Source: Zhengitettix transpicula
Taxonomy: Eukaryota; Arthropoda; Insecta; Orthoptera; Tetrigidae
Direction of reading: 5' to 3'
Assembly (NCBI GenBank): GCA_037074705.1
Contig: CM073590.1
Location: 90,016,947 to 90,080,946, forward strand
Length of the DNA stretch: 64,000 nucleotides
The notes below the pieces were generated by a model that saw nothing but the letters and a program-made list of their open reading frames with translations, was not told where the DNA came from and made no database searches. Below, piece by piece: positions 11,640 to 48,230 of the stretch; the first letter of the stretch is position 1, and every line of letters starts with the position of its first letter. Position numbers and translations under genes: made by a program.

Positions 11640-13400
11640 ACCGTACCACTAACATTATATTTATCAATATCGAAAAAAACTATAAAAGAATGCGACTTTG
11701 TTAATTCTACAGCAGGAAACCATACGAAACTACTGAAAGGGTACTTGTGCAAAAACAAAACAAAAGTGATTTGTGGTATTGGCGGTGCGAGAAGTGGAAA
11801 TCTCTTGGGTGCGGTGGTTATGGGAGAACAGTGGACCGTGACGAAAAACGCTGGTTGCACTCCTCTACACAGCACAATCACACACGCCTGAAGCGACGAG
11901 AAGAATGTGAGCGAAGCAGTCAGCAACAGATAGGGGAAAAAACCCATACAAATAATATGGAATGAAGTAGTAGTCATTCCCTCCGAATCAAAACCATCCA
12001 TGACAAATAATAATTATGTGCCGACTGCCAGGATGACCTTCAACCTGTTTTCATCTTAACTGATTTTGAACAAGCAGCCATCGACAGCGCTGCACACACA
12101 ATAACCATTTGGGCCAGTCGACATGCGTTTGCAGTAGGTATAGTCTTCCCATGTATCATTTAATCCCTCTTGCGCTTCTGGAGCCGCAGGACATCACTCT
12201 CTTATCAACTTCAAATAATTTTATTATAGGAAGAACTGGTAGTCGTCTTGTTTCTTGAAGAAACATATGGCCAACGGAAACATTCCACCCGAAAACATCG
12301 CAATGGTCAGTATACCTGAAGGTTTTACCGTTTAATTTCCCCTTTCTCGTTGTTTGATGCTAATCTGGGTTCTACGAATCGCCGACAAGAACAGTAGGAG
12401 TTTTCAGGAGGGATGTTCTCTCGCAGGAAGAACCTTTTAGGAGAGATACGAAGGGGCTACCTTTGGGTATGCCTTTTCCTCTCCGTTTTTGAACTAAGGT
12501 TCCCACAAGTGTATGTTCCGGGGTCACAGACCTTGGGAATACGGTAAGAGTTGTCCGCTATTCCCATTGGAATACTCGGCCAGCTGCCTCCTAAACTGGT
12601 CGAGGCACGGAGAAGGGAATGCTGCGTCCCCACAGCAAACTCCTCTCCCGCTATCTGAAGGGCGTGGGACAAGTACCCAATGCCCGACCTACCCGATGCA
12701 GGTTTTTCTAGGGTTTTCCCTGCATTTCTTTAGGCGAATGTCGGGCAGGATTCTTAAAATATAGCCCGGGGGCTCTAGTTAACCCTTGGCTACCTTCCTC
12801 TACCCTTCCGCATCCGCCCTTTCAAATCCCTTCCTATGCTATTAAAGGGGAGTTGCCCAACGTGGATTACCTTCATGTAGCCTGTTGCCCTAAAAAAAAG
12901 TAGGAGTTTTCAGTGAGTGCTCGTCGAGGAGTCAGTCGGGTTGATTACGGACCTGTTCTTCCTTTCTCACTCTCTTATCATTTTACTATCCCTGTCCTGT
13001 CTTCTATTCATATAGGGTAATTTTGAGTTGAACTTATTAATGAGGGTAGGTGTTTTATGAAAAGAGACAATTGTTAAATTAAATTTGTTGTTCCTTTTGT
13101 ACCAAACTGATGCTCGACTCATGCACTGACGACAAATTAATTGTCAGTTGCGCTTAGTTTATAATTTTTGCCTTTACAGCGAGTACCTGTTTAGCTGTTT
13201 TGAAAGGTGCATTGTTCAAACGCACCCAAACGTCCGTTAATCATTTAGATGAACTCCCTCGTACCCAGAACATCGTTGAGGCGAGACACAGATGGCTCAA
13301 AAGTATAATTTAAAGACCTCAATTAGATGTGTCTTGTATTTTTACCAAAAAAAAGGGAACTCAAGAAAGAACAGATAAGGGAGTCGCAAATAACGGAAGA
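11640..13400 (+). pseudogene. FLYWCH zinc-finger / MULE transposase remnant, split by repeat A
   Basis: Reading frames shift but the order is that of insect Mutator-like (MULE) transposases. An N-terminal FLYWCH finger comes first: STAGNHTKLLKGYL in one frame, then LWYWRCEKW..GCGGYGRTV..HSSTQHNHT in the next (about 11700-11885). A MULE core segment follows, ILTDFEQAAIDSA (about 12050-12090), which holds the conserved D-x-E-x-A of the transposase domain. A piece LEETYMANGNIPPENI (about 12255-12295) may correspond to the late EETY region. A degenerate tail with TQHPN-like and LDELPRTQNIVEAR stretches lies at about 13210-13290. Repeat A (12400-12900) is inserted between the last two. Several frameshifts and stops make it inactive. 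Confidence 0.65.
12400..12905 (+). repeat. Dispersed repeat A, copy 2 (near full length)
   Basis: One of the most complete A copies. It runs from a GGGATGTTCTCTCGCAGG-like start through GAACTAAGGTTCCCACAAG, CGGGGTCACAGACCTTGGG, CTGGTCGAGGCACGG and CTAGTTAACCCTTGGC to GTAGCCTGTTGCCC plus an A-rich end. The A tail suggests copying through RNA. Its antisense strand keeps an open frame containing GGSWPSIPMGIADNSYRIP, also open in copy 3. The copy sits inside the MULE remnant and so is younger than it. Confidence 0.85.
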
Positions 13401-16249: not shown

Positions 16250-16795
16250 ATTTTTTTTAGGGCAACAGGTTACATGAGGGTAATCCACATGGTGGCAACT
16301 CCCCTTTAATAGCATAGGAAGAGATTTGAAAGGGGGGATGCGGAAGGGTAGAGGAAGGTAGCCAAGGGTTAACTAGGGTCCCCGGGCTATATTTTAAGGA
16401 TCCTACCCGGCATTCGCCTAAAGAAATGCAGGAAAAACCCTAGAAAAACCTGCATCAGGTAGATCGGGCATTGGGTACTTGTCCCACGCCCTTCCGATAG
16501 CGAGAGAGGAGTTTGCTGTGGGGTCGCAGCTTTCCCCTCGCCATGCCTTGGCCAGTTTAGGAGGCAGCTGGCCGACTATTCCAATGGGAATAGCAGAAAA
16601 CTCTTACCGTATTCCCAAGGTCTGTGACCCCGGAACATACACTTGTGGGAACCTTAGTTCAAAAACGGAGAGGAAAAGACATCCCCAAAGTTAGCCCATT
16701 CGTATCTCTCCTAAAAGGTTGGGCCTGCGAGTGAACATCCCTCGCAGGTATTGACTGCGAGAGAGTAGCCCTCGAACAGGTTCTATCACACTGAA
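16250..16795 (-). repeat. Dispersed repeat A, copy 3 (inverted, near full length)
   Basis: Minus-strand counterpart of copy 2. It begins on the plus strand with a T-rich stretch and AGGGCAACAGGTTAC (the 3' tail) and ends with ACATCCCTCGCAGG (the 5' side). The plus strand keeps a 71-codon open frame with GGSWPTIPMGIAENSYRIP, close to the antisense frame of copy 2. Confidence 0.87.
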
Positions 16796-22489: not shown

Positions 22490-23440
22490 CGTGCTCTGCT
22501 TTACTACACTACACTTTACACAATATCAGCTCGTTTTCCTTTTTTCAATCTTCTGGTAGGGTTTTGTCGGACCACTGGATTGATGAGGAGGTGTTTACCA
22601 GCAGAACATTTTCTTTTTCTTTTATGGTTGGAATCCGGAGATCCCTATGGAGATCTTTGTTTAGGATAGACCCGGTAGCATTCACGATGTTTCTTAACTC
22701 TTTATACTGAAATGTTTGTATGCACTTAATGTTTGTGTCACAGGCAAAGCCTCAAAACTGAATACCGTATAGCCACATTGATTTCAATATTCGAATGTAA
22801 ATCAGTAGTTTGTTGGAAATTGAAAGTTTTAAGTTTCTTTCAAGTAGCCAATAGTATTGTCTATATTTTATGCTTAATTCAGAATTTTTTCTTAACATGC
22901 TCTTTCCACCTAAGTTTTATACTTGGCGTTGTTCTCATAGGGCACAATAGTTCCATTTATATTTAGTGACGATAAGTTTTTTGATTGTTTGTTTGTGAAT
23001 ACTATAAGTGTAGATTTCTGCTCGTTTAGTCTCATCCGCCATTGTTTAGTCCAGTCACATTTTGAGTACCTGGCTTGTAGTCTTCTAGTTGAAAGGTTTT
23101 CGTCTTTCCCTACTGCAAGTAACGCGGTGTCATCTCCATCTATAGCTACCTCAGTTCCTTCCAATTTTGGTATATTGCCAGTGTATAACAAGTAGAGGAT
23201 AGGACCCAACAGGCTACCTTGGGACACTCCGACTCTTACCTCGTTCAAATCAGAATATTCATCTTGTTTAATTCTGAATATTTTGTCGGTGATGTATGAT
23301 GTTACTATCTCTACATATTGCTTTGGCAGCATTTTGTTTACTTTATGTATCAATTTTTCATGCCATACTTTGTCGAAGGCTAGCGAAGCATCTAAAAAGA
23401 CTGCTGAGGAGACTTGTGTTTCTTCCAGTGCACGTTAAAT
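22490..23440 (-). pseudogene. Jockey-clade LINE ORF2 fragment (RT fingers/palm to C-terminus)
   Basis: The minus strand reads FLDASLAFDKVWHEKL (about 23350-23400) and then, in the 147-codon frame 22910-23353, VGVSQGSLLGPILYLLYT, a catalytic block IDGDDTALLAVG (normally F-A-D-D-T-A), DWTKQWRMRLNEQKS and NINGTIVPYENNAKY. In other frames it continues with LRWKEHVKKK, ILKSMWLYGIQF, FQYKELRNIVNA and HRDLRIPTI. This is the RT and post-RT region of Jockey-type elements. One catalytic Asp is retained but FADD is altered, and frameshifts interrupt the C-terminal half. ORF1, the endonuclease and both ends are missing. Confidence 0.87.
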
Positions 23441-23779: not shown

Positions 23780-24260
23780 GAAGCCTGCGAGGGAGGTTCT
23801 CACGCAGCCAGAACCTTTTGGGAGATACGGAGAGGGCTACCTTTTGGGATACCTTCTCCTCTCTCTGTTTTTTTGAACTAAGGTTCCCATACGCCGAGGC
23901 ACCTCGGCCTGTTTTGAGAGGTGTGTGGTCCGGGGTCAGAGACCTTGGGCATACGGTAAGAGTTGTTCGCCATTCCCATTGGAACAGTTAGCCAGATGCC
24001 CCCCAAACTGGTCGAGGCACGGAGAAGGAAATGCTACGTACCCACAGAAAGCCCCTCTCAAGCCATCGGACAAGTACACAATGCCCGGCCTACACGATGC
24101 AGGTTTTCTAGGGTTGGTCCTGCATCACTTTTAGGCAAATGCCTAAATCCTTAATCTACAGCCCGGGTGCCGCAGTTAATTATTGGGTACTTTTGTACAT
24201 CCCCTTTTCTGTCCTCTTCCGAGGGGAGTTGCCACTATATATAGCCTGTCTGCAGCTTCA
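23780..24260 (+). repeat. Dispersed repeat A, copy 4
   Basis: Carries GAAGCCTGCGAGGGAGG, CTGTTTTTTTGAACTAAGG, GAGGCACCTCGG, GGGGTCAGAGACC, CTGGTCGAGGCACGG and a degraded 3' end at TATAGCCTGTC. Confidence 0.83.
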
Positions 24261-25369: not shown

Positions 25370-25745
25370 TCAGGTCTCTAACAGCTGCCTCATAAGCTAA
25401 TCGAGGTACGGAGAAGGGAATGCTGCGTCCCCACAGCAAACTCTTCTCCCACTATTGGAAGGGCGTGGGACAAGTACCCAATGCCCGACCTACCTGATGC
25501 AGGTTTTTCTTGCATTACTTTTAGGCGAATACCGGGTAGGATCCTTAAACTATAGCCCGCGGGCCCTAGTTAACCCTTGGCTACCTTCCTCTACCCTTCC
25601 GCATCCCCCCTTTCAGATCCCTTCCTATGCTATTAAAGGGGAGTTGCCACCATGTGGATTACCCTCATGTAGCCTGTTACCCTAAAAGAGAGAGAGAGAG
25701 AGAGAGAGAAGAGAAGAGAAGAGAAGAGAAGAGAAGAGAAGAGTA
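25370..25745 (+). repeat. Dispersed repeat A, copy 5 (5' truncated) with GA/GAGAA tail
   Basis: The copy begins in mid-unit (ACAGCTGCCTCATAAGC) and runs to GTAGCCTGTTACCCTAAAA. The A-rich end has turned into a GA microsatellite and then AGAAG pentamers. 5' truncation with a simple-sequence tail is typical of retroposed copies. Confidence 0.83.
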
Positions 25746-27600: not shown

Positions 27601-27669
27601 TTCTTTGGTAAATGTGGATCATGGAATTTCGTCATTCGATAGCTATACAAGTTTATATATATATATATA

Positions 27670-28002
27670 TATAAGACAATTGTTATGAATATTGATTCAG
27701 TAAACAAAAATATGTTTCTCTGTAAAGAAAGAACAGAATAATTTTTTATTAAATATGTACAACAATTAATTACATTATTTACAATTACATTATTTACAAG
27801 CCTACCTGTAAAGAAACGACAATTAAAGTTTACTATTATCAGTTCTTTACGAATTTAAAATCTATCTCGTTTAAAATCTCCTTCGTTCTTTTAATAGCCG
27901 TCAGATAGAGTGACGATTCCGGAACAACTGAAGAACAAACAGCGCGCGGAGCAAAGAGGACCGCTGCATCTTTAAAACTGAAGAATGTATACTTTCTTTA
28001 TA
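27670..28002 (-). repeat. 3' LTR
   Basis: 333 bp, identical to the 5' LTR with a constant offset of 4494. On the element's strand it starts TATAAAGAAAG and ends GTCTTATA, a 5-bp inverted repeat (TATAA/TTATA) in place of TG...CA. The inner edge is fixed by the purine tract. The outer edge merges with flanking TA repeats. Confidence 0.95.
27745..27750 (-). terminator. Polyadenylation signal in the 3' LTR
   Basis: AATAAA on the element strand, about 75 nt downstream of the predicted R start. It fits as the end signal of the genomic RNA. The same hexamer is at 32239-32244 in the 5' LTR. Confidence 0.6.
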
Positions 28003-28014
28003 TCTCCCGCTCCC
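28003..28014 (-). promoter_or_regulatory. Polypurine tract (plus-strand primer)
   Basis: GGGAGCGGGAGA, a purine run with one C, directly abuts the 3' LTR on the element strand. This fixes the start of the LTR at TATAA. Confidence 0.85.
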
Positions 28015-28036
28015 GGGGTGAAAATTTTTACAATTT

Positions 28037-31000
28037 TCAGTATTCATGTCCGTCTTCTGATCTTGGGAGTAATTTCGTTACATGGAATAATCCCGTTTCT
28101 TTCTTTCCGTTTCCAGTTTTTATTTTATATATTGAATTTGATATTTTTTGTATAATTTCGTAAGGTCCAATTCTCAGTTCGTCTAACTTCTTTCTGTTCA
28201 GCTTGTTGCCATGTTCTATATATACTAGATCTCCTGTGTTGAACTGGTGGTTAATTCTATTTTTGTCAAATATATTTTTGTTATATACATGTGATCTTCT
28301 TGTTCTTTTCAGAGCTTGTTCTTTATCTCTTATCCAATTTTCTTTATTGTTTCTTGTTTTTAATTCTTCGGGTAAAATGCTGGTATCTGTGCCATCTAAT
28401 AAATACTTAGGTGTAAAACCCGTTACCGTATGCTCTGTTTTATTGTATTTATCAATACATTCTCTGGCGATCGTTGTCCAAGCTCTTTTCTGTCCTTTTT
28501 CATTTATCTTACATCTTGTCTTATTGACTAGAGTTTGATTTAATCTCTCGTTCAGACCATTGGAGAAGGGCGCATTGACCGACGTAAAAATTAGTCTAAC
28601 ATCATTTTCTACCAGGAATTCCTTGAATTCGCTTGAGTTTATTCCCGGATATTGATCTGCAAGTATAGTTCCAATTTTGTCCGTTTCCAGCACTTTATTT
28701 ATCAACTTAATGAAGTCAGTTGCACTTTGAGTTTTCGATGTTGAAATAAACGCATATCTCGTAAAATGGTCCACTAGTAGGTGGAGATATCTTTTTGTTG
28801 ATCTTTGTCCTCCGAAGCCTCCAATGGTGTCAATTGACATTATTTCGAATGGTTCTGTTGCTGGTCCCAATTGTGACATCAGCCCATATTTTTGTTGCCC
28901 TCTGGATTTGTTCTTAATACATATTTCACAGTTTTTACACATTTTTTTTATATTTGCAGTTATATGTTTAGCTGTATAATAGGGGCACACCCTATTCATC
29001 ATTTGTTTAATCCCTATATGGCACCATTCAGTGTGTATTTCTTTAATTAATTCTAAGCTTAACTTTTCAGATAAAAGTATCTTTTCTTTATTTCTAACTT
29101 TTTTATAGAAGATTCCATCTTTTTCTATTAATTTTGTTTTGGTTTTTTGCAATGTTTTATTTTTTTCTTGATCTGTTTTTATTTCTTGTATTTTTATTAG
29201 ATTGACTATTTCTAGTATTTCTTCTGTATTTTCAAGTGGTTCTAGTACTGGATTTCTACTGAGACTATCCGCTTCGGCATTATCTTTTCCCGGAATATAT
29301 TTAATTTCAAAATTGTATTGTGACAAGTAATAAGTCAACTCACCGAGTTCTTCATCCGTTCTAGCTTTTATATTCATGTTTTCTAATGGTTTATGGTCTG
29401 AAAATACTGTGAATTTCCTTCCAATTAGCCAGTGTTGCCAATACATTATTGCTTCCTTGATTGCTAAGCATTCTAAATAAATTGCTTTTTTCCTTTTTTG
29501 TGAGTCATTCAATTTTTTTGAAAAATATGCGACTGGCTTTTCTTTACCATTCTTTTGTATCTGTTTAAATACTGCACCAACGCCTGCCAGTGATGCATCT
29601 GTATAAATTCGTATTGGTAAATCCTTATCAAATATTTCCAACACAGGTTGAGAACATAGAAACTTTTTTACATCCGTAAAAGATCTTTCGCACTCTTCAG
29701 ACCATATAAATTTCTCATTTTTCCGTAATAGTTTGTGTAACGGGTCCAGCAATATTGAACTTTTCGGTATATACTCGTGATAGAAGTTGATTTTTCCAAG
29801 AAACTGTCGAATGTTCTTTTGGGTTTTCGGAGTGGGAAAATTTTGTATTGAAATTAGATTATCTTTTACTGGTCTTACTGTATTGTGTTCTATTATATGT
29901 CCAAGGTATTTTACTGATTCTGCTGCAAATGTACATTTTTTAAATTTTAGTCTAAAACCTTCATTTACTATTGCTTTTATTACTTTTTCTATATGTTCCA
30001 TATGTTCTTTAAATGATTCTGAGAAAATTAAAATGTCGTCTATGTAATTTTCTGAAAAGTCTTTTAAATTATGTTTTCTCAAGATATTGGATAAAATTCT
30101 CTGGAAAATAGCTGGTGATGTTTTTAATCCGAATGGTAGACATGTCCATTGGAAATGTCCTTCTTGTGTAACGAATCCTGTTTTCTGTCTGTCTTCAATG
30201 CGTAGTGGAATTGACCAAAAAGCGGAATTTATATCTAGTGTGGTGAAGTATTTACAGTTCCTTGTTTTTATTATTAGATCCTCTATTAATGGGAATGGTT
30301 GAGCTTGTGGTACAATTATTTTGTTTAATTCGCGAAAATCTATACACAATCTTGATCGTCTGTTTTCATCTCTTTTGAATGCTAGGGTTACTGGTGCTGC
30401 AAACGGGCTATAAGATTCTTCAATTAACTTATTTTCGAGTAACTTTGCCACTTGATTTTCTATTTCTTTTTTATCCTCTATAGTACATCTATACGGCCTC
30501 TTACTACAATATTTATCAACTATTAAGTCTATTCGAGCTTCGTAGTCTGTAACGGTGCCTACATCATATTTATTTTTTGCAAATACTGTGTTATACTTTT
30601 CTGTTAGTTTTTCAATCTTTATTTTTTTTATACTGTCCAAGTGATCTAAATTCATCCTGAACTCGTCTTCGTTCACATGTTCGTTAAAATTTATTTTAAC
30701 TTCTTCTATTTCTTCATTTTTATCCAATGTATTTATTTCTTCTTTTTGGGATATTTGTAAATTTTCATCCTGAATTAGTTTGAATTTCTTTATTATGTCT
30801 AAACCGATAAGAAAATCTTCAAAATCGTCTCTTTCTACAATAAACACATCAATGTATTCTTCTTTATCAAAAATTTTTACTTTTATGGTTACTAAACCTT
30901 TTGTTTGTGTCACACCATTGACTGTTTTTAAAAATATTTTATTTACATCTTCTGTCTTTTTCTTTATCTTAACTAATTTTGAATTTATTAGAGAGACTTG

Positions 31001-31081
31001 GGAGCCTGGATCATATGTTCCATTTACTTCTAGCTTCTCCTCTAATAATATTTTTATTTTAATCAATGGTGTGATTACTCG
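28037..31081 (-). CDS. pol: Pol polyprotein (protease, RT, RNase H, integrase), -1 frame
   Basis: There is no ATG at its head. Codons join Gag by -1 frameshifting at 31081, so it is made as Gag-Pol. Positions below count from the isoleucine-lysine start at 31066, 1009 residues. Protease: D19-P-G in place of D-S/T-G, with a later FLIGLD. RT: LDINSAFWSIPL (D278), LPFGL, catalytic YIDD 341-344. RNase H: D490 in YTDAS, E532, D557 in FSDHK, D600. Integrase: H678-x4-H683 and C710-x2-C713, then D746, D804 and E840 with 35 residues between the last two. GPY/F module around 966-983 (IGPYEII). Ends FHVTKLLP plus a short tail. Every catalytic residue except the protease serine/threonine neighbour is as expected. 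No stops or frameshifts. Confidence 0.96.
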   Translation of the reverse strand, partial: RVITPLIKIKILLEEKLEVNGTYDPGSQVSLINSKLVKIKKKTEDVNKIFLKTVNGVTQTKGLVTIKVKIFDKEEYIDVFIVERDDFEDFLIGLDIIKKFKLIQDENLQISQKEEINTLDKNEEIEEVKINFNEHVNEDEFRMNLDHLDSIKKIKIEKLTEKYNTVFAKNKYDVGTVTDYEARIDLIVDKYCSKRPYRCTIEDKKEIENQVAKLLENKLIEESYSPFAAPVTLAFKRDENRRSRLCIDFRELNKIIVPQAQPFPLIEDLIIKTRNCKYFTTLDINSAFWSIPLRIEDRQKTGFVTQEGHFQWTCLPFGLKTSPAIFQRILSNILRKHNLKDFSENYIDDILIFSESFKEHMEHIEKVIKAIVNEGFRLKFKKCTFAAESVKYLGHIIEHNTVRPVKDNLISIQNFPTPKTQKNIRQFLGKINFYHEYIPKSSILLDPLHKLLRKNEKFIWSEECERSFTDVKKFLCSQPVLEIFDKDLPIRIYTDASLAGVGAVFKQIQKNGKEKPVAYFSKKLNDSQKRKKAIYLECLAIKEAIMYWQHWLIGRKFTVFSDHKPLENMNIKARTDEELGELTYYLSQYNFEIKYIPGKDNAEADSLSRNPVLEPLENTEEILEIVNLIKIQEIKTDQEKNKTLQKTKTKLIEKDGIFYKKVRNKEKILLSEKLSLELIKEIHTEWCHIGIKQMMNRVCPYYTAKHITANIKKMCKNCEICIKNKSRGQQKYGLMSQLGPATEPFEIMSIDTIGGFGGQRSTKRYLHLLVDHFTRYAFISTSKTQSATDFIKLINKVLETDKIGTILADQYPGINSSEFKEFLVENDVRLIFTSVNAPFSNGLNERLNQTLVNKTRCKINEKGQKRAWTTIARECIDKYNKTEHTVTGFTPKYLLDGTDTSILPEELKTRNNKENWIRDKEQALKRTRRSHVYNKNIFDKNRINHQFNTGDLVYIEHGNKLNRKKLDELRIGPYEIIQKISNSIYKIKTGNGKKETGLFHVTKLLPRSEDGHEY

Positions 31082-31087
31082 TTTTTT
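31060..31087 (-). promoter_or_regulatory. -1 ribosomal frameshift signal between gag and pol
   Basis: The slippery heptamer A-AAA-AAC occupies 31087-31081 in the correct Gag phase. Three nt later comes a perfect 6-bp hairpin (TAATCA, 6-nt loop, TGATTA) at 31077-31060, and the Gag stop codon is inside its first arm. Pol is open in the -1 frame across this point. The heptamer is a well-known efficient slip site. The hairpin is AU-rich and closer than usual, so another downstream structure may take part. Confidence 0.88.
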
Positions 31088-32142
31088 TGTTCTGTATTTA
31101 TATCTACTTCTATCACTGAATTGCTTCCAATTACTCCAACTTCATTCCCATTTTTCTTTCTAAACCAGCATGTGTCCTCTGGATGATACCTAATACCTTT
31201 GTTCAATTTTTCACAGGTTTTACATGGCTTCTTCTCTTCAAATTTCTTCTTATTGTCTTGTCTTTCCTCTTTCTTTTTTATGAAGGTATTTTTACTCACT
31301 AGATTTTCACACTTTCTAATTTCATGTAGCAGTCCGGTTGAATTTACACAATTTTCTCTATCTATTTTATTTCTAACAAATTCAGGTAGTCCTGCTGCTA
31401 TAAGCATCACTAGAGTCTTTGTACCAATATCATTGTCCATATCAAGCAATAGCTTCTCTTTCTTCATTGTGTATTCCATTAGTGAACCTTCTTTATATTT
31501 ATAAGATATAGCATAGAAACCTGAACTCCATCCTTTGTCTGCAAATGACTCTAAAAATTTCTCTGTCCATGCAGACCATCCAGCTTCCATTGTCAATGTT
31601 GTCAGTGTTGCTGAGTGCCAATTTAAACACGATTTGTCCATAAATAGTCTTAATATCTCAATCTTTGTATTATCTTCACTAATTTCAAATCTTCTACATT
31701 CTCTCTCAAATATCTCCAACCATTGCTTTGCGTTTGAGTGTTTACATGCAAATTTTTCTATCATAAACCTCTCTGCTATGTTTTTCAGATTTAATTGAAT
31801 TTCTTTCTTCTGTCTGGCTTCTGGTATACTTCCTTCCACTATCTGTTCTAGATACAAATCCTTAAACATTAAATTTCCATCTTCATCGAAATAAATTTTT
31901 TCCATTTCCTCTGTGCATGTAATCCATATTATCATTTCTTGGCCTCTTTGATTGAAGCTTTTTTTCACTCTTTTATAGTTCTCTGTTTTTTTTAATGCAA
32001 AATGTTCACTTACCGATTTTTCGGCTTCCGGCAGCACATACTTCAAATTGCCCTCTGTTGTAATAGAGGTTATGGTGATGATATTTGTCTTTTTGTCTTT
32101 TGATGCTACATATTTAAATGCAAATTGCAGTTTTTTTTCCAT
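31075..32142 (-). CDS. gag: Gag polyprotein of the LTR retrotransposon
   Basis: 355 residues from the ATG at 32142, which lies 10 nt after the primer site. A frame one codon series longer begins only at TTG. Gag forms the particle and packages the element RNA. The middle (roughly residues 110-270) is charged, with W-containing helical segments such as KQWLEIFERECRRF, as in Ty3/gypsy capsids. Near the C-terminus is a zinc-knuckle-like motif, C307-x2-C310-x9-H320-x4-C325. The C2-H spacing is 9 instead of the common 4, and it includes RYHPEDTCWF. The gene ends in TAA within the frameshift hairpin, four codons after the slippery stretch begins. The reading frame is intact. Confidence 0.93.
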   Translation of the reverse strand: MEKKLQFAFKYVASKDKKTNIITITSITTEGNLKYVLPEAEKSVSEHFALKKTENYKRVKKSFNQRGQEMIIWITCTEEMEKIYFDEDGNLMFKDLYLEQIVEGSIPEARQKKEIQLNLKNIAERFMIEKFACKHSNAKQWLEIFERECRRFEISEDNTKIEILRLFMDKSCLNWHSATLTTLTMEAGWSAWTEKFLESFADKGWSSGFYAISYKYKEGSLMEYTMKKEKLLLDMDNDIGTKTLVMLIAAGLPEFVRNKIDRENCVNSTGLLHEIRKCENLVSKNTFIKKKEERQDNKKKFEEKKPCKTCEKLNKGIRYHPEDTCWFRKKNGNEVGVIGSNSVIEVDINTEQKNE

Positions 32143-32152
32143 TATAAACAAA

Positions 32153-32163
32153 AATTGTCGTTT
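32153..32163 (-). promoter_or_regulatory. Primer-binding site, self-priming type
   Basis: The 11 nt right after the 5' LTR read AAACGACAATT. They do not begin with TGG, as a tRNA 3'-end complement would, and no TGG-start site lies in the short leader. They pair perfectly over 11 nt with the R-region sequence at 32308-32318. The base on either side does not pair, so the match is exactly 11 nt and starts exactly at the LTR edge. Confidence 0.65.
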
Positions 32164-32307
32164 TATAAGACAATTGTTATGAATATTGATTCAGTAAACA
32201 AAAATATGTTTCTCTGTAAAGAAAGAACAGAATAATTTTTTATTAAATATGTACAACAATTAATTACATTATTTACAATTACATTATTTACAAGCCTACC
32301 TGTAAAG

Positions 32308-32318
32308 AAACGACAATT
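32308..32318 (-). promoter_or_regulatory. Predicted transcript 5' end / self-primer sequence
   Basis: AATTGTCGTTT on the minus strand is the exact reverse complement of the 11 nt next to the LTR (32153-32163). In Tf1/sushi-type elements the first 11 nt of the RNA pair with the primer site and are cut to give the reverse-transcription primer. The transcript would therefore be predicted to begin at 32318. The same sequence is at 27814-27824 in the 3' LTR. Confidence 0.6.
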
Positions 32319-32346
32319 AAAGTTTACTATTATCAGTTCTTTACGA

Positions 32347-32354
32347 ATTTAAAA
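32347..32354 (-). promoter_or_regulatory. TATA-like box in the 5' LTR
   Basis: TTTTAAAT on the minus strand lies about 29-36 nt upstream of 32318, the start predicted from the self-priming match. That is the spacing expected for a TATA box. Confidence 0.45.
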
Positions 32355-32489
32355 TCTATCTCGTTTAAAATCTCCTTCGTTCTTTTAATAGCCGTCAGAT
32401 AGAGTGACGATTCCGGAACAACTGAAGAACAAACAGCGCGCGGAGCAAAGAGGACCGCTGCATCTTTAAAACTGAAGAATGTATACTTT

Positions 32490-32496
<7 letters not shown>

Positions 32497-32530
<34 letters not shown>
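32497..32530. repeat. (TA)n tract flanking the LTR element
   Basis: About 30 bp of TA on the right side. The left side, 27653-27669, is also TA. The element evidently inserted into a TA microsatellite. Confidence 0.95.
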
Positions 32531-33809: not shown

Positions 33810-34252
33810 GGGAAGGAAGCCTGGGATGAGTCTTTTCAGGTGAACCTTCCCAGAGAGCTCTGTATGAGGCTACCTTAGGGATGCCTTCTCCTCTCACTGG
33901 TTTTTTGAACTAAGGTTCCCACAAGCCGAGGCACTTCGGTCAGTTTTGAGAGATGCAAATTCCGGGGTCGCTGACCTTGGGCATAAGGAAAGAATTGTGT
34001 GCTATTCCTTTTGGAATAGTCGGCCAGCTGCCTCCTAACTGGTTGAGGCACGGAGAGGGGAATGCTGCGTCCTCACAGCAAATCCCTCTCCCCCCATCGG
34101 AAGGACGTTGGACAAGTACCAAATGTCCGACTTACCTGATGCAGGTTTGTCCTGCATCACATTTAGGGAGTTTTCGGGTAGGATCCTTAAACCATAGCCC
34201 GAGAACCCTACTTAAACCCTTCTTATGCCATTAAAGCTTGTTACTCTAAAAA
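33810..34252 (+). repeat. Dispersed repeat A, copy 6
   Basis: From GGAAGCCTGGGATGAG through GAACTAAGGTTCCCACAAG, CGAGGCACTTCGG and CTGGTTGAGGCACGG to a shortened 3' end CTTGTTACTCTAAAAAAA. Confidence 0.83.
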
Positions 34253-46524: not shown

Positions 46525-48230
46525 ATGGCTACTGCACTTGACATTCGTCAAAAGCAATATGCTGTAATAGAATTTCTGTGCTGTGAGAACGAGGGAGCGG
46601 GAAACATCCACAAGAAGTTGAAAAAGGTGTATGGAGATCGCTGTACAGTTAGTCGTTTCGCAAGAAGATTACGTGGTGAAAGAGGGCACGCCAATATTCT
46701 TGATATGGGGAAGATATTGCATATTGCACTGACAATGTGTAGAGAGCTAACGAAATGGTCTCGGCCGACAAACGCATCACAGGAAAGATTTGTCACTCCA
46801 AGTTGGAATAATATAGGAATACTGAAAGAGTTGAAGTTGAAAAAGGTTTGTGTCAGGTGGGTTCAAAAACTGTTAATAGAGGCTCATAAAAAAGCACATT
46901 GTGTAGTCAACTTTTGGGACAGTACTGGAATGTTGGATTTGACTTTCTTGCAAGAATTGTGACAAGCGATGAAACAGGGCTCCACCATCTTGAATCGGAA
47001 ACGAAGAGGCAATCAATTGAGTGCTTCATGCAAACTAACCTAAGAGAAAAATGTTAAAAACTTCACATTCGGCCGTAAAAGGTTTTTCGATGCGATGAAC
47101 TCTTGATTGTAGACATCATGCAACGAGGAACCATTATTAGATCTGACTCATATGTGGCAACTCTGAAAAAACTTCAAATTCTTAGTTTTTGTTTGAGCAC
47201 ATCGAGAGAAGCAGGCTATTTTGCTGTTGTGGGACAATGCGCGACCCCACATCTTCATGGCCACGGAACTGTGTCTGGAAACACCGGAGGCCAACAATAT
47301 CATATTAAGAGATCCCAAGGAAGCAATACACAGAATAACTAGTACAGTGCACAGAAATGGTTGCATAAATCGAATTAGAGAGAATATATTTAAAATACAA
47401 GAAAAAGGAAACCGGATCATTATAGCCTGGCTACCGGTGCAGAAGGACATAGTAGGGCACGACAGGGCAGATGTCCTAGCGAAGATGGAAGCTGTTCATC
47501 AAGGAAGATCCAGCAACCTGCCAGTTTGCACCAGCAGGGACTACAGAGTAGGGCTCTACAAGGAACTGGAGGAAAAGTGGAGTAGACCAGTGAAACCAGA
47601 GGAATGCGGAGTCATCCTCAGAAATGTCAACAGCATCAGAGAAATATCACACACGAAAGAACTATCTCGAAGGCAACAGGTTGTTGTAGCCAGAATAAGA
47701 ACATTGCACTCCAGTTTCACTCATTCATTCTTGATTTCCAGATCTCCGCAGCCGGTATGCAGCTCATGCAAGGAGACCACAACAATTCCTCGTGTCCTCT
47801 TTGACTGCCCCAAATATAGCGAGATAAGAAAATCAACCATAGGCGCACATTCAATGATGGAGATTTGCAACTCATCAGCAGCAATAAACAACCTCATAGA
47901 CTTTACGATGAAAACTGATTTGTATAAAGTAATTTAAATGTTATACAAATGTAGAACTTAACAGATGTAAGTCGCTAATGACCAAAAGGCTAATGCGACG
48001 TTAAATTGTAATTAAAAAACAAACAAACATTGAAACATCCGACTTACAGTCGTGACCTGGCTCCATGCGATTACCATCTCTTTGGTAAAGTAATGGAATC
48101 ATTTTGTGGACCGATGTTTGAAGGTGATGTCTCCCTGATGATGAACGTTGCCAAACATGGCTCAAATGTAATAGACAAGACTTTTACCGTGGTAGTATAG
48201 AGGACCTAGTTCCAAGGTGGCGTAAGGCAA
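46525..48230 (+). pseudogene. Mariner transposase pseudogene
   Basis: Begins at ATG 46525 with a typical mariner start (DIRQKQYAVIEFLCCENEG, then NIHKKLKKVYGDR..TVSRFARRLRGERGHANI), which is the helix-turn-helix DNA-binding region. The catalytic triad can be followed through frame changes. First D at 46968-46970 in IVTSDETGLHH (the usual W is G). Second D at 47233-47235 in LLWDNARPH. Third D at 48069-48071 in SRDLAPCDYHLF, after the inserted LINE piece. There is an internal deletion after GHANI, a frameshift near 46950 and stops near 47050. In an intact element the protein cuts and pastes the element at TA sites. Confidence 0.9.
47285..48027 (+). pseudogene. LINE 3' fragment (RNase H and C-terminal region) inserted in the mariner
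   Basis: An open frame of about 215 codons ends at 47937. It holds an RNase H end (IIIAWLPVQKDIVGHDRADV) and a terminal zinc-finger region (CSSCKETTTIPRVLFDCPKY), as in RNase H-bearing LINEs. It is 5' truncated, as is usual for LINE insertions, and ends in an A-rich tail (about 48009-48027). GAAACA-CCG at 47278 and GAAACATCCG at 48032 flank it and look like the target duplication. The frame fuses by chance with the upstream mariner D2 region, giving a misleading chimeric frame from 47221. The coding part is uninterrupted, so the insertion is fairly young. Confidence 0.85.

Follow-up and report, generated by a model that had tools for sequence, protein, structure and literature searches.

How does a retrotransposon that carries no recognizable tRNA-type primer-binding site (PBS) begin to copy its RNA? 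The question is raised by a long terminal repeat (LTR) element of the Ty3/gypsy type located on the minus strand of a 64,000-nt stretch of the genome of the orthopteran Zhengitettix transpicula (contig CM073590.1, positions 90,016,947 to 90,080,946; this whole stretch is referred to as the window). Based on comparisons of the window sequence with its relatives, this young element very probably uses its own RNA as the primer for minus-strand DNA synthesis. In the open-licence literature searched, self-priming has so far been described for Tf1/sushi chromoviruses and proposed for the plant elements Tcn1 and TAR, and no insect element was described as self-primed. If the reading is correct, tRNA-free priming would exist in a lineage that lacks a chromodomain and has homologues in Hymenoptera, Lepidoptera, Coleoptera, and Orthoptera. 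The features that bear on priming are:

32164..32497, minus strand: 5′ LTR, 334 nt, identical to the 3′ LTR and inserted in (TA)n
27670..28003, minus strand: 3′ LTR, identical to the 5′ LTR
32153..32163, minus strand: PBS AAACGACAATT, directly 3′ of the 5′ LTR, with an exact complement inside the LTR
32308..32318, minus strand: putative self-primer AATTGTCGTTT, LTR nt 180-190, presumably the 11 nt with which the RNA begins
32347..32354, minus strand: TATA-like TTTTAAAT, 36 to 29 nt upstream of the inner 11-mer, assigned by position only

The 5′ and 3′ LTRs were found to be identical over 334 of 334 nt, which indicates that the element is young. An earlier note on this DNA had claimed that the 11 nt after the 5′ LTR are an exact reverse complement of 11 nt inside the LTR, that neighboring bases do not extend the match, that a tRNA-type site beginning TGG is absent, and that a TATA-like box lies about 30 nt upstream of the inner copy. 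These claims were confirmed, as positions 32163-32153 are the reverse complement of 32318-32308, the bases flanking both 11-mers are unpaired, the first TGG occurs only after 22 nt (at the start of gag), and TTTTAAAT was detected at the distance listed. The 11 nt also represent the longest complement between the LTR and the first 23 nt beyond it. The probability of a chance match, estimated in the earlier note as about 1 in 10,000, required correction. The exact 11-mer was held by 23 of 20,000 dinucleotide-shuffled LTRs, and a complement of at least 11 nt starting no more than 5 nt from the edge by 58 of 20,000. As a control, 63,655 window positions were checked for a comparable match in the preceding 334 nt, which was present at 130 of them on the plus strand and at 138 on the minus strand, counts that take in the element's own site as well as simple or inverted repeats. 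The shuffles and the window control thus place a chance match at about 1 to 3 in 1,000, at least 10-fold higher than the earlier figure. No tRNA (bacterial settings) or Rfam family at gathering score was found in the 64-kb window.

Young copies from the same genome (G000, 993.6 Mb; 41 matches among 40 scored of 237 candidates) were examined for conservation of the two 11-mers. The sample consisted of the 33 5′-LTR copies that reach past the LTR end (L001 to L033), including the window copy itself (L005). The inner 11-mer was intact in all 33 copies and the PBS in 32, the exception being L033, which is cut after AAAC. When the deletions of L032 and L033 were left out, variants were detected at 39 sites or indel places in the LTR and PBS, with none at LTR positions 154-205, which contain the inner 11-mer, and none at 313-345. 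Random placement of the 39 variants left 154-205 empty at a P-value of 0.003 and left both stretches empty in 0 of 20,000 trials. As a separate observation on the ends of such copies, the LTR of L033, L114, and L142 runs on into 4, 6, or 8 nt of PBS sequence before other DNA begins, which in L114 and L142 consists of TA repeats; apparently, these right ends are cDNA left untrimmed. They were set aside as evidence for self-priming, since untrimmed ends are expected with any primer, and L031 (PBS plus 2 nt, then unrelated DNA) was too short to weigh.

A second subfamily, with loci gathered by a genome search with a distant pol and gag, was found to preserve the pairing through compensatory change. 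In L087 and L090, the PBS reads AAACGACATTA and the inner copy TAATGTCGTTT. Each 11-mer departs from its window counterpart at two positions, with pairing preserved at 11 of 11, which is covariation of the kind that the earlier note had proposed to look for. The 11-mers of L065 and L095 are fully paired once G-U is allowed (L065 counted by hand). In a 30-locus table of primer and PBS, 18 loci were exact and 7 were within two mismatches; of the remainder, L060 and L104 had no match, L089 and L096 were without the motif, and L065 was misparsed by the script and is the locus that hand counting found paired. L050 has a primer but is outside this table, and a complete primer-PBS leader was not seen in L055, L056, L059, L061, L066, L091, L093, L101, or L103. 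When the window was compared with five second-subfamily loci, alignment was largely limited to the LTR start, ATAAACTTT-primer-CTTT, TTTACAGAG, and CTTATAAAACGRCA; alignable LTR portions are thus few across subfamilies, and they include the inner 11-mer and the LTR/PBS edge.

The genome was also searched for a pattern in which U3 plus primer is joined to antisense U5. Three exact matches, one match with 1 mismatch, and three with 2 were identified. Because a reversed control pattern gave 8 matches at up to 2 mismatches, only the first four loci (L026, L141, L143, and L148) were retained, and L138 and L152 to L154 were taken as chance pattern matches. In L141 and L148, the U3-primer is joined to antisense U5 and the sequence then leaves the element, while in L143 the same join turns back into U5. 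In L026, read on its own strand, the LTR and PBS are followed by 20 nt antisense to the stretch just upstream of the primer (19/20) and then by gag. All four junctions have the structure expected if a strand with the inner 11-mer at its end anneals to the PBS and is elongated from nt 11, which indicates that contact between the two 11-mers occurs in vivo. Given the compensatory change and the junction loci, chance was rejected as the whole explanation. A junction-product LTR at L149 (C4:102641373) was observed to adjoin an array of nine tRNA-like genes, eight of which were called tRNA-Gln (bacterial settings).

The conservation among copies, the compensatory changes, the alignable edges, and the four junction loci support the proposal of the earlier note that priming is Tf1-like, and we consider it the best reading that the element works like Tf1. 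RNA polymerase II would start at or near 32318, giving an RNA that begins AATTGTCGTTT, and the 5′ end of this RNA would fold back onto AAACGACAATT just past the 5′ LTR. The RNase H of the element would cut between nt 11 and 12, and the primer would be extended into U5. Indirect signs of a cut at this point are the position of the junctions at nt 11 and the repeat tract (described below) that starts with nt 12. This cleavage is modeled on Tf1, for which passages of PMC7175516 and PMC10085805 place the cut between the same nucleotides; self-priming by Tf1 and its relatives is described in portions of these two sources and of PMC4600332.

Several observations weigh against this reading and were considered together with the alternatives. 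The TATA-like TTTTAAAT at -36 is slightly far for a start at 32318, the stretch behind the P-value of 0.003 was picked after it had been seen (an equally long gap anywhere has a P-value of 0.08), and old copies are often mismatched, with 1 to 2 mismatches at 7 of the 30 loci in the primer-PBS table and 5 more loci matchless or motifless by script. The junction loci could come from DNA template switching between the inverted 11-mers, which would look alike, so the junctions are no proof that RNA is the usual primer. It could further be argued that the 11-nt match arose by chance in AT-rich DNA and that the true primer is an unrecognized tRNA or tRNA half, as a probability of 1 to 3 in 1,000 is not negligible when many elements are scanned. 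This explanation is extremely improbable in our view, in that both 11-mers are conserved, TGG is absent from the first 22 nt after the LTR, four junction loci exist, and the second subfamily displays compensatory change.

Pairing alone is likewise no proof of priming, since the 11-mers may pair as a leader structure (for dimerization, packaging, or translation) while something else primes. RNA folding, a further check suggested in the earlier note, gave a divided answer: the 11-bp duplex was present in the folds of the whole window leader (208 nt) and the spliced leader (94 nt), but a 199-nt fold of the window favored an alternative, local U5-PBS hairpin over the full duplex. The spliced L090 leader formed the duplex, and the L065 and L087 leaders folded without it. 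Set against the three-duplex "pretzel" leader of the Tf1/sushi group, the 11-bp duplex thus appears in two window folds, in part in the 199-nt fold, and not in those of L065 and L087. Even so, a purely structural role is quite improbable, given that the outer 11-mer lies flush with the LTR end, the point at which synthesis must add the first cDNA base, that U3-primer was found extended exactly from nt 11, and that the length of 11 nt equals the value given for Tf1 in the priming passages of PMC7175516.

A less certain addition to self-priming is a leader intron of about 86 nt, which would carry the poly(A) signal and be removed from the 5′ copy. The relevant features are:

32300..32307, minus strand: first repeat CTTTACAG, corresponding to nt 12-19 of the putative RNA and to the end of putative exon 1
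32214..32299, minus strand: presumed leader intron, 86 nt, GTAGG...TTTACAG, holding AATAAA; absent from nine copies
32239..32244, minus strand: poly(A) signal AATAAA inside the presumed intron
32214..32221, minus strand: second repeat CTTTACAG, at the putative 3′ splice site and in the region where the RNA would end

The general pattern was found to be the 11-mer, CTTT(NTTT)ACAG/GTA (the slash marks the presumed 5′ splice site), and, 58 to 104 nt on, the same word plus AG, with AATAAA between. In the window the primer is followed by CTTTACAG/GTAGG, and in the second subfamily by CTTTGTTTACAG/GTAAAT, CTTTGGTTACAG/GTAATT, and CTTTGTTTTCAG/GTAAAT. Two leader tables, of 33 and 55 rows, were compared; L106, L109, and L131 are L087, L090, and L062 again, the window appears as both REF and L005, and L086, L087, L090, and L096 occur in both tables. 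The second word plus AG ends 58 to 78 nt on in the 33-row table and mostly 86 nt on (range, 66 to 104 nt) in the 55-row table. The presumed 5′ GT is kept in 31/33 and 52/55 rows, respectively, and AATAAA lies inside the presumed intron in 30/31 and 52/55 rows. The two words are identical in 23/31 and 49/55 rows. Within the 33-row table, the GTTT and GGTT forms of the word are never mixed within one LTR, and in L124 both words carry CTCT. Every other difference is confined to one copy, apart from a C at the end of word 1 that occurs in L120, L129, and L102. The shared repeat tract begins at nt 12 of the presumed RNA, which is what would be predicted for strong-stop DNA that terminates at this nucleotide and then anneals to the second word at the 3′ end of the RNA.

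The presumed intron was found to be missing in nine copies, including (i) L051, L052, L067, L088, L092, and L100 of the window subfamily; and (ii) L065, L139, and L140 of the other, with L139 and L140 carrying one substitution near the join. The 3′ LTR partners, where read, were likewise without it (L071 of L051 and L072 of L052). A nearest-copy comparison covering L051, L067, L088, L092, and L100 revealed that L092 equals full copies over 283 nt, that L051 and L067 are closest to L017 (3 and 2 differences, respectively), that L100 is closest to L011, L012, and L022 (3 differences), and that L088 is closest to L098 (13 differences). These values suggest at least four separate intron-like losses in the window subfamily.

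The pattern of losses and paired repeats suggests that the leader is spliced and that first strand transfer occurs over a repeat of 8 to 12 nt. With the intron removed, primer and PBS would lie 69 nt apart (start to start) instead of 155 nt, and strong-stop DNA ending at nt 12 would anneal to the CTTT..ACAG copy at the RNA 3′ end, thereby restoring the intron. We see an even chance that the full proposal holds, namely, that the retrotransposon is self-primed, belongs outside the chromoviruses, and has a leader intron built in. In this scheme, splicing would strip the poly(A) signal from the RNA 5′ end only and bring the primer close to the PBS, first transfer would use the 8- to 12-nt repeat from nt 12 instead of a long R, and each cycle would restore the intron and overwrite the second repeat with the first. 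The competing explanation is that the intron-like stretch is unspliced and that copies without it are direct-repeat deletions formed during reverse transcription. As CTTT..ACAG repeats flank the stretch exactly, splicing and deletion give the same product, so that the losses could indeed be deletions between direct repeats. In addition, the presumed 5′ GT is lost in 2/33 and 3/55 rows, and the intron of L058, L099, and L105 measures 71 rather than 86 nt, which fits slippage loss of an internal tandem unit. Deletion would explain the losses equally well, though simple deletion does not account for the paired change of the two words from nt 12 on. The intron size of 58 to 104 nt also speaks for splicing, and splice-like ends (CAG/GTAGG, GTAAAT, GTAATT, GTAAGT; TTTACAG/AG) are kept across subfamilies at the high GT frequencies noted above. 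We hold an unspliced stretch to be a serious possibility, yet short of probable.

The coding capacity of the element was examined with regard to its classification:

31078..32142, minus strand: gag, 355 aa, ATG at 32142, with homologues across many insects
31081..31087, minus strand: AAAAAAC, likely -1 frameshift site linking gag and pol
28040..31141, minus strand: pol frame, 1034 aa, with protease motif, reverse transcriptase (RT), RNase H, and integrase
28004..28018, minus strand: polypurine-type tract CCCCGGGAGCGGGAG ahead of the 3′ LTR

The gag and pol frames overlap in a -1 arrangement, and AAAAAAC at 31087 is the likely slip site between them. Domain matches in pol included RT, RNase H, H2C2, and the integrase core (rve), with GPY/F assigned by eye and the protease by motif only; Ty3 was the best solved-structure match. 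The LTRs, gag, and a pol ordered protease-RT-RNase H-integrase give a Metaviridae-type layout, and no env gene of the errantivirus type was found between the pol end (28040) and the 3′ LTR start (28003). The protease motif itself reads Y-D-P-G-S, compared with Y-D-S-G-S in the majority of 25 aligned relatives; the D-P-G form also occurs in relatives P0001 and P0007. The LTR terminus reads ..GTCTTATA (ending ..TTATA), and the LTR ends are not TG..CA, with the exact edge blurred by the TA target. TA-rich repeats were observed at the left flanks of 33 of 33 copies (L001 to L033; window positions 27640-27672 and 32490-32530), which shows that the family inserts into (TA)n, and the target-site duplication is hidden by these repeats.

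In agreement with the earlier note, which had described the element as lacking a chromodomain, no Chromo match was detected in the window pol at an E-value of 0.001 or in the precomputed Pfam lists of 120 listed of 1174 pol homologues. The Tf1/sushi group comprises Ty3/gypsy chromoviruses of fungi, vertebrates, and some plants. Like these, the window element has an 11-nt PBS that adjoins the 5′ LTR and exactly complements an 11-mer within the LTR, located where the RNA would be expected to begin; unlike these, it has no detected chromodomain at the integrase C terminus, has LTRs ending in ..TTATA rather than CA, carries a presumed leader intron, targets (TA)n, and has named homologues in insect hosts. 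The LTRs of fission yeast elements end in CA according to a section of PMC10085805. Membership of the window element in the Tf1/sushi group is not shown. It may nonetheless descend from a Tf1/sushi chromovirus that lost its chromodomain, with self-priming inherited and not of separate origin, as the length of 11 nt and the position of the PBS are the same and the integrase end gave a weak match to SH3_Tf2-1 (24.5 bits versus a cut-off of 30). We rate this descent as rather unlikely considering the missing chromodomain and the LTR ends, neither of which replaces a phylogenetic tree.

Among the 120 gag homologues listed of 190, those with a named source come from Hymenoptera, Lepidoptera, Coleoptera, and Orthoptera: ants, wasps, a sawfly, a bee, moths, butterflies, a beetle, and a cricket. 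Scans of viral contigs and genome contigs with the pol protein or its alignment gave no relative, and tblastn of pol gave no match in phages and three records in plasmids, all at <30% identity. A Wolbachia plasmid record, NZ_CP087956.1 (5.3 kb), was found to encode RT and RNase H-like frames 29% identical to the window pol over 68%; possibly, it is an insect element taken for a plasmid.

Ty3 and other tRNA-primed Ty3/gypsy elements carry a tRNA-type PBS and have the same pol domain order as the window element. In HTLV-1, the foamy viruses, and other retroviruses whose splice donor lies in R, the splice serves to make subgenomic RNAs. Their splicing signals within R-U5 near the poly(A) signal resemble those presumed for the window element, for which the splice would instead keep the PBS and shorten the genomic leader. 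If present, such an intron would be an unusual way to hide a poly(A) signal at the 5′ end while keeping it at the 3′ end, and junction products together with repeats that change in pairs would provide a genome-only test of priming. The LTR-PBS complementarity of the window element is shared with Tcn1, a chromovirus, and TAR, a Ty1/copia element, for which portions of PMC6317226 predict self-priming from this feature. For one Tcn1 element of a non-seed plant, the pertinent passage of PMC2864245 reports that neither tRNA priming nor self-priming was found, and elements with neither tRNA nor self-primer sites are mentioned in parts of PMC5006619 and PMC5445492. The latter include the GalEa copia elements (Conserved Hairpin Site), which like the window element have no tRNA PBS after the LTR; unlike it, they have a hairpin in place of the PBS, and no LTR complement was found for them (PMC5445492).

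Elsewhere in the window, remnants of non-LTR retrotransposons were identified at 22910-23434 (minus strand, RVT_1 match) and 47197-47937 (plus strand, with no Pfam match and RNase H-like by eye only). Positions 12408-12899, 16251-16743, 23789-24193, 25382-25687, and 33868-34221 belong to a dispersed repeat family whose members are about 300 to 490 bp long, lie in both orientations, and are 70 to 93% alike.
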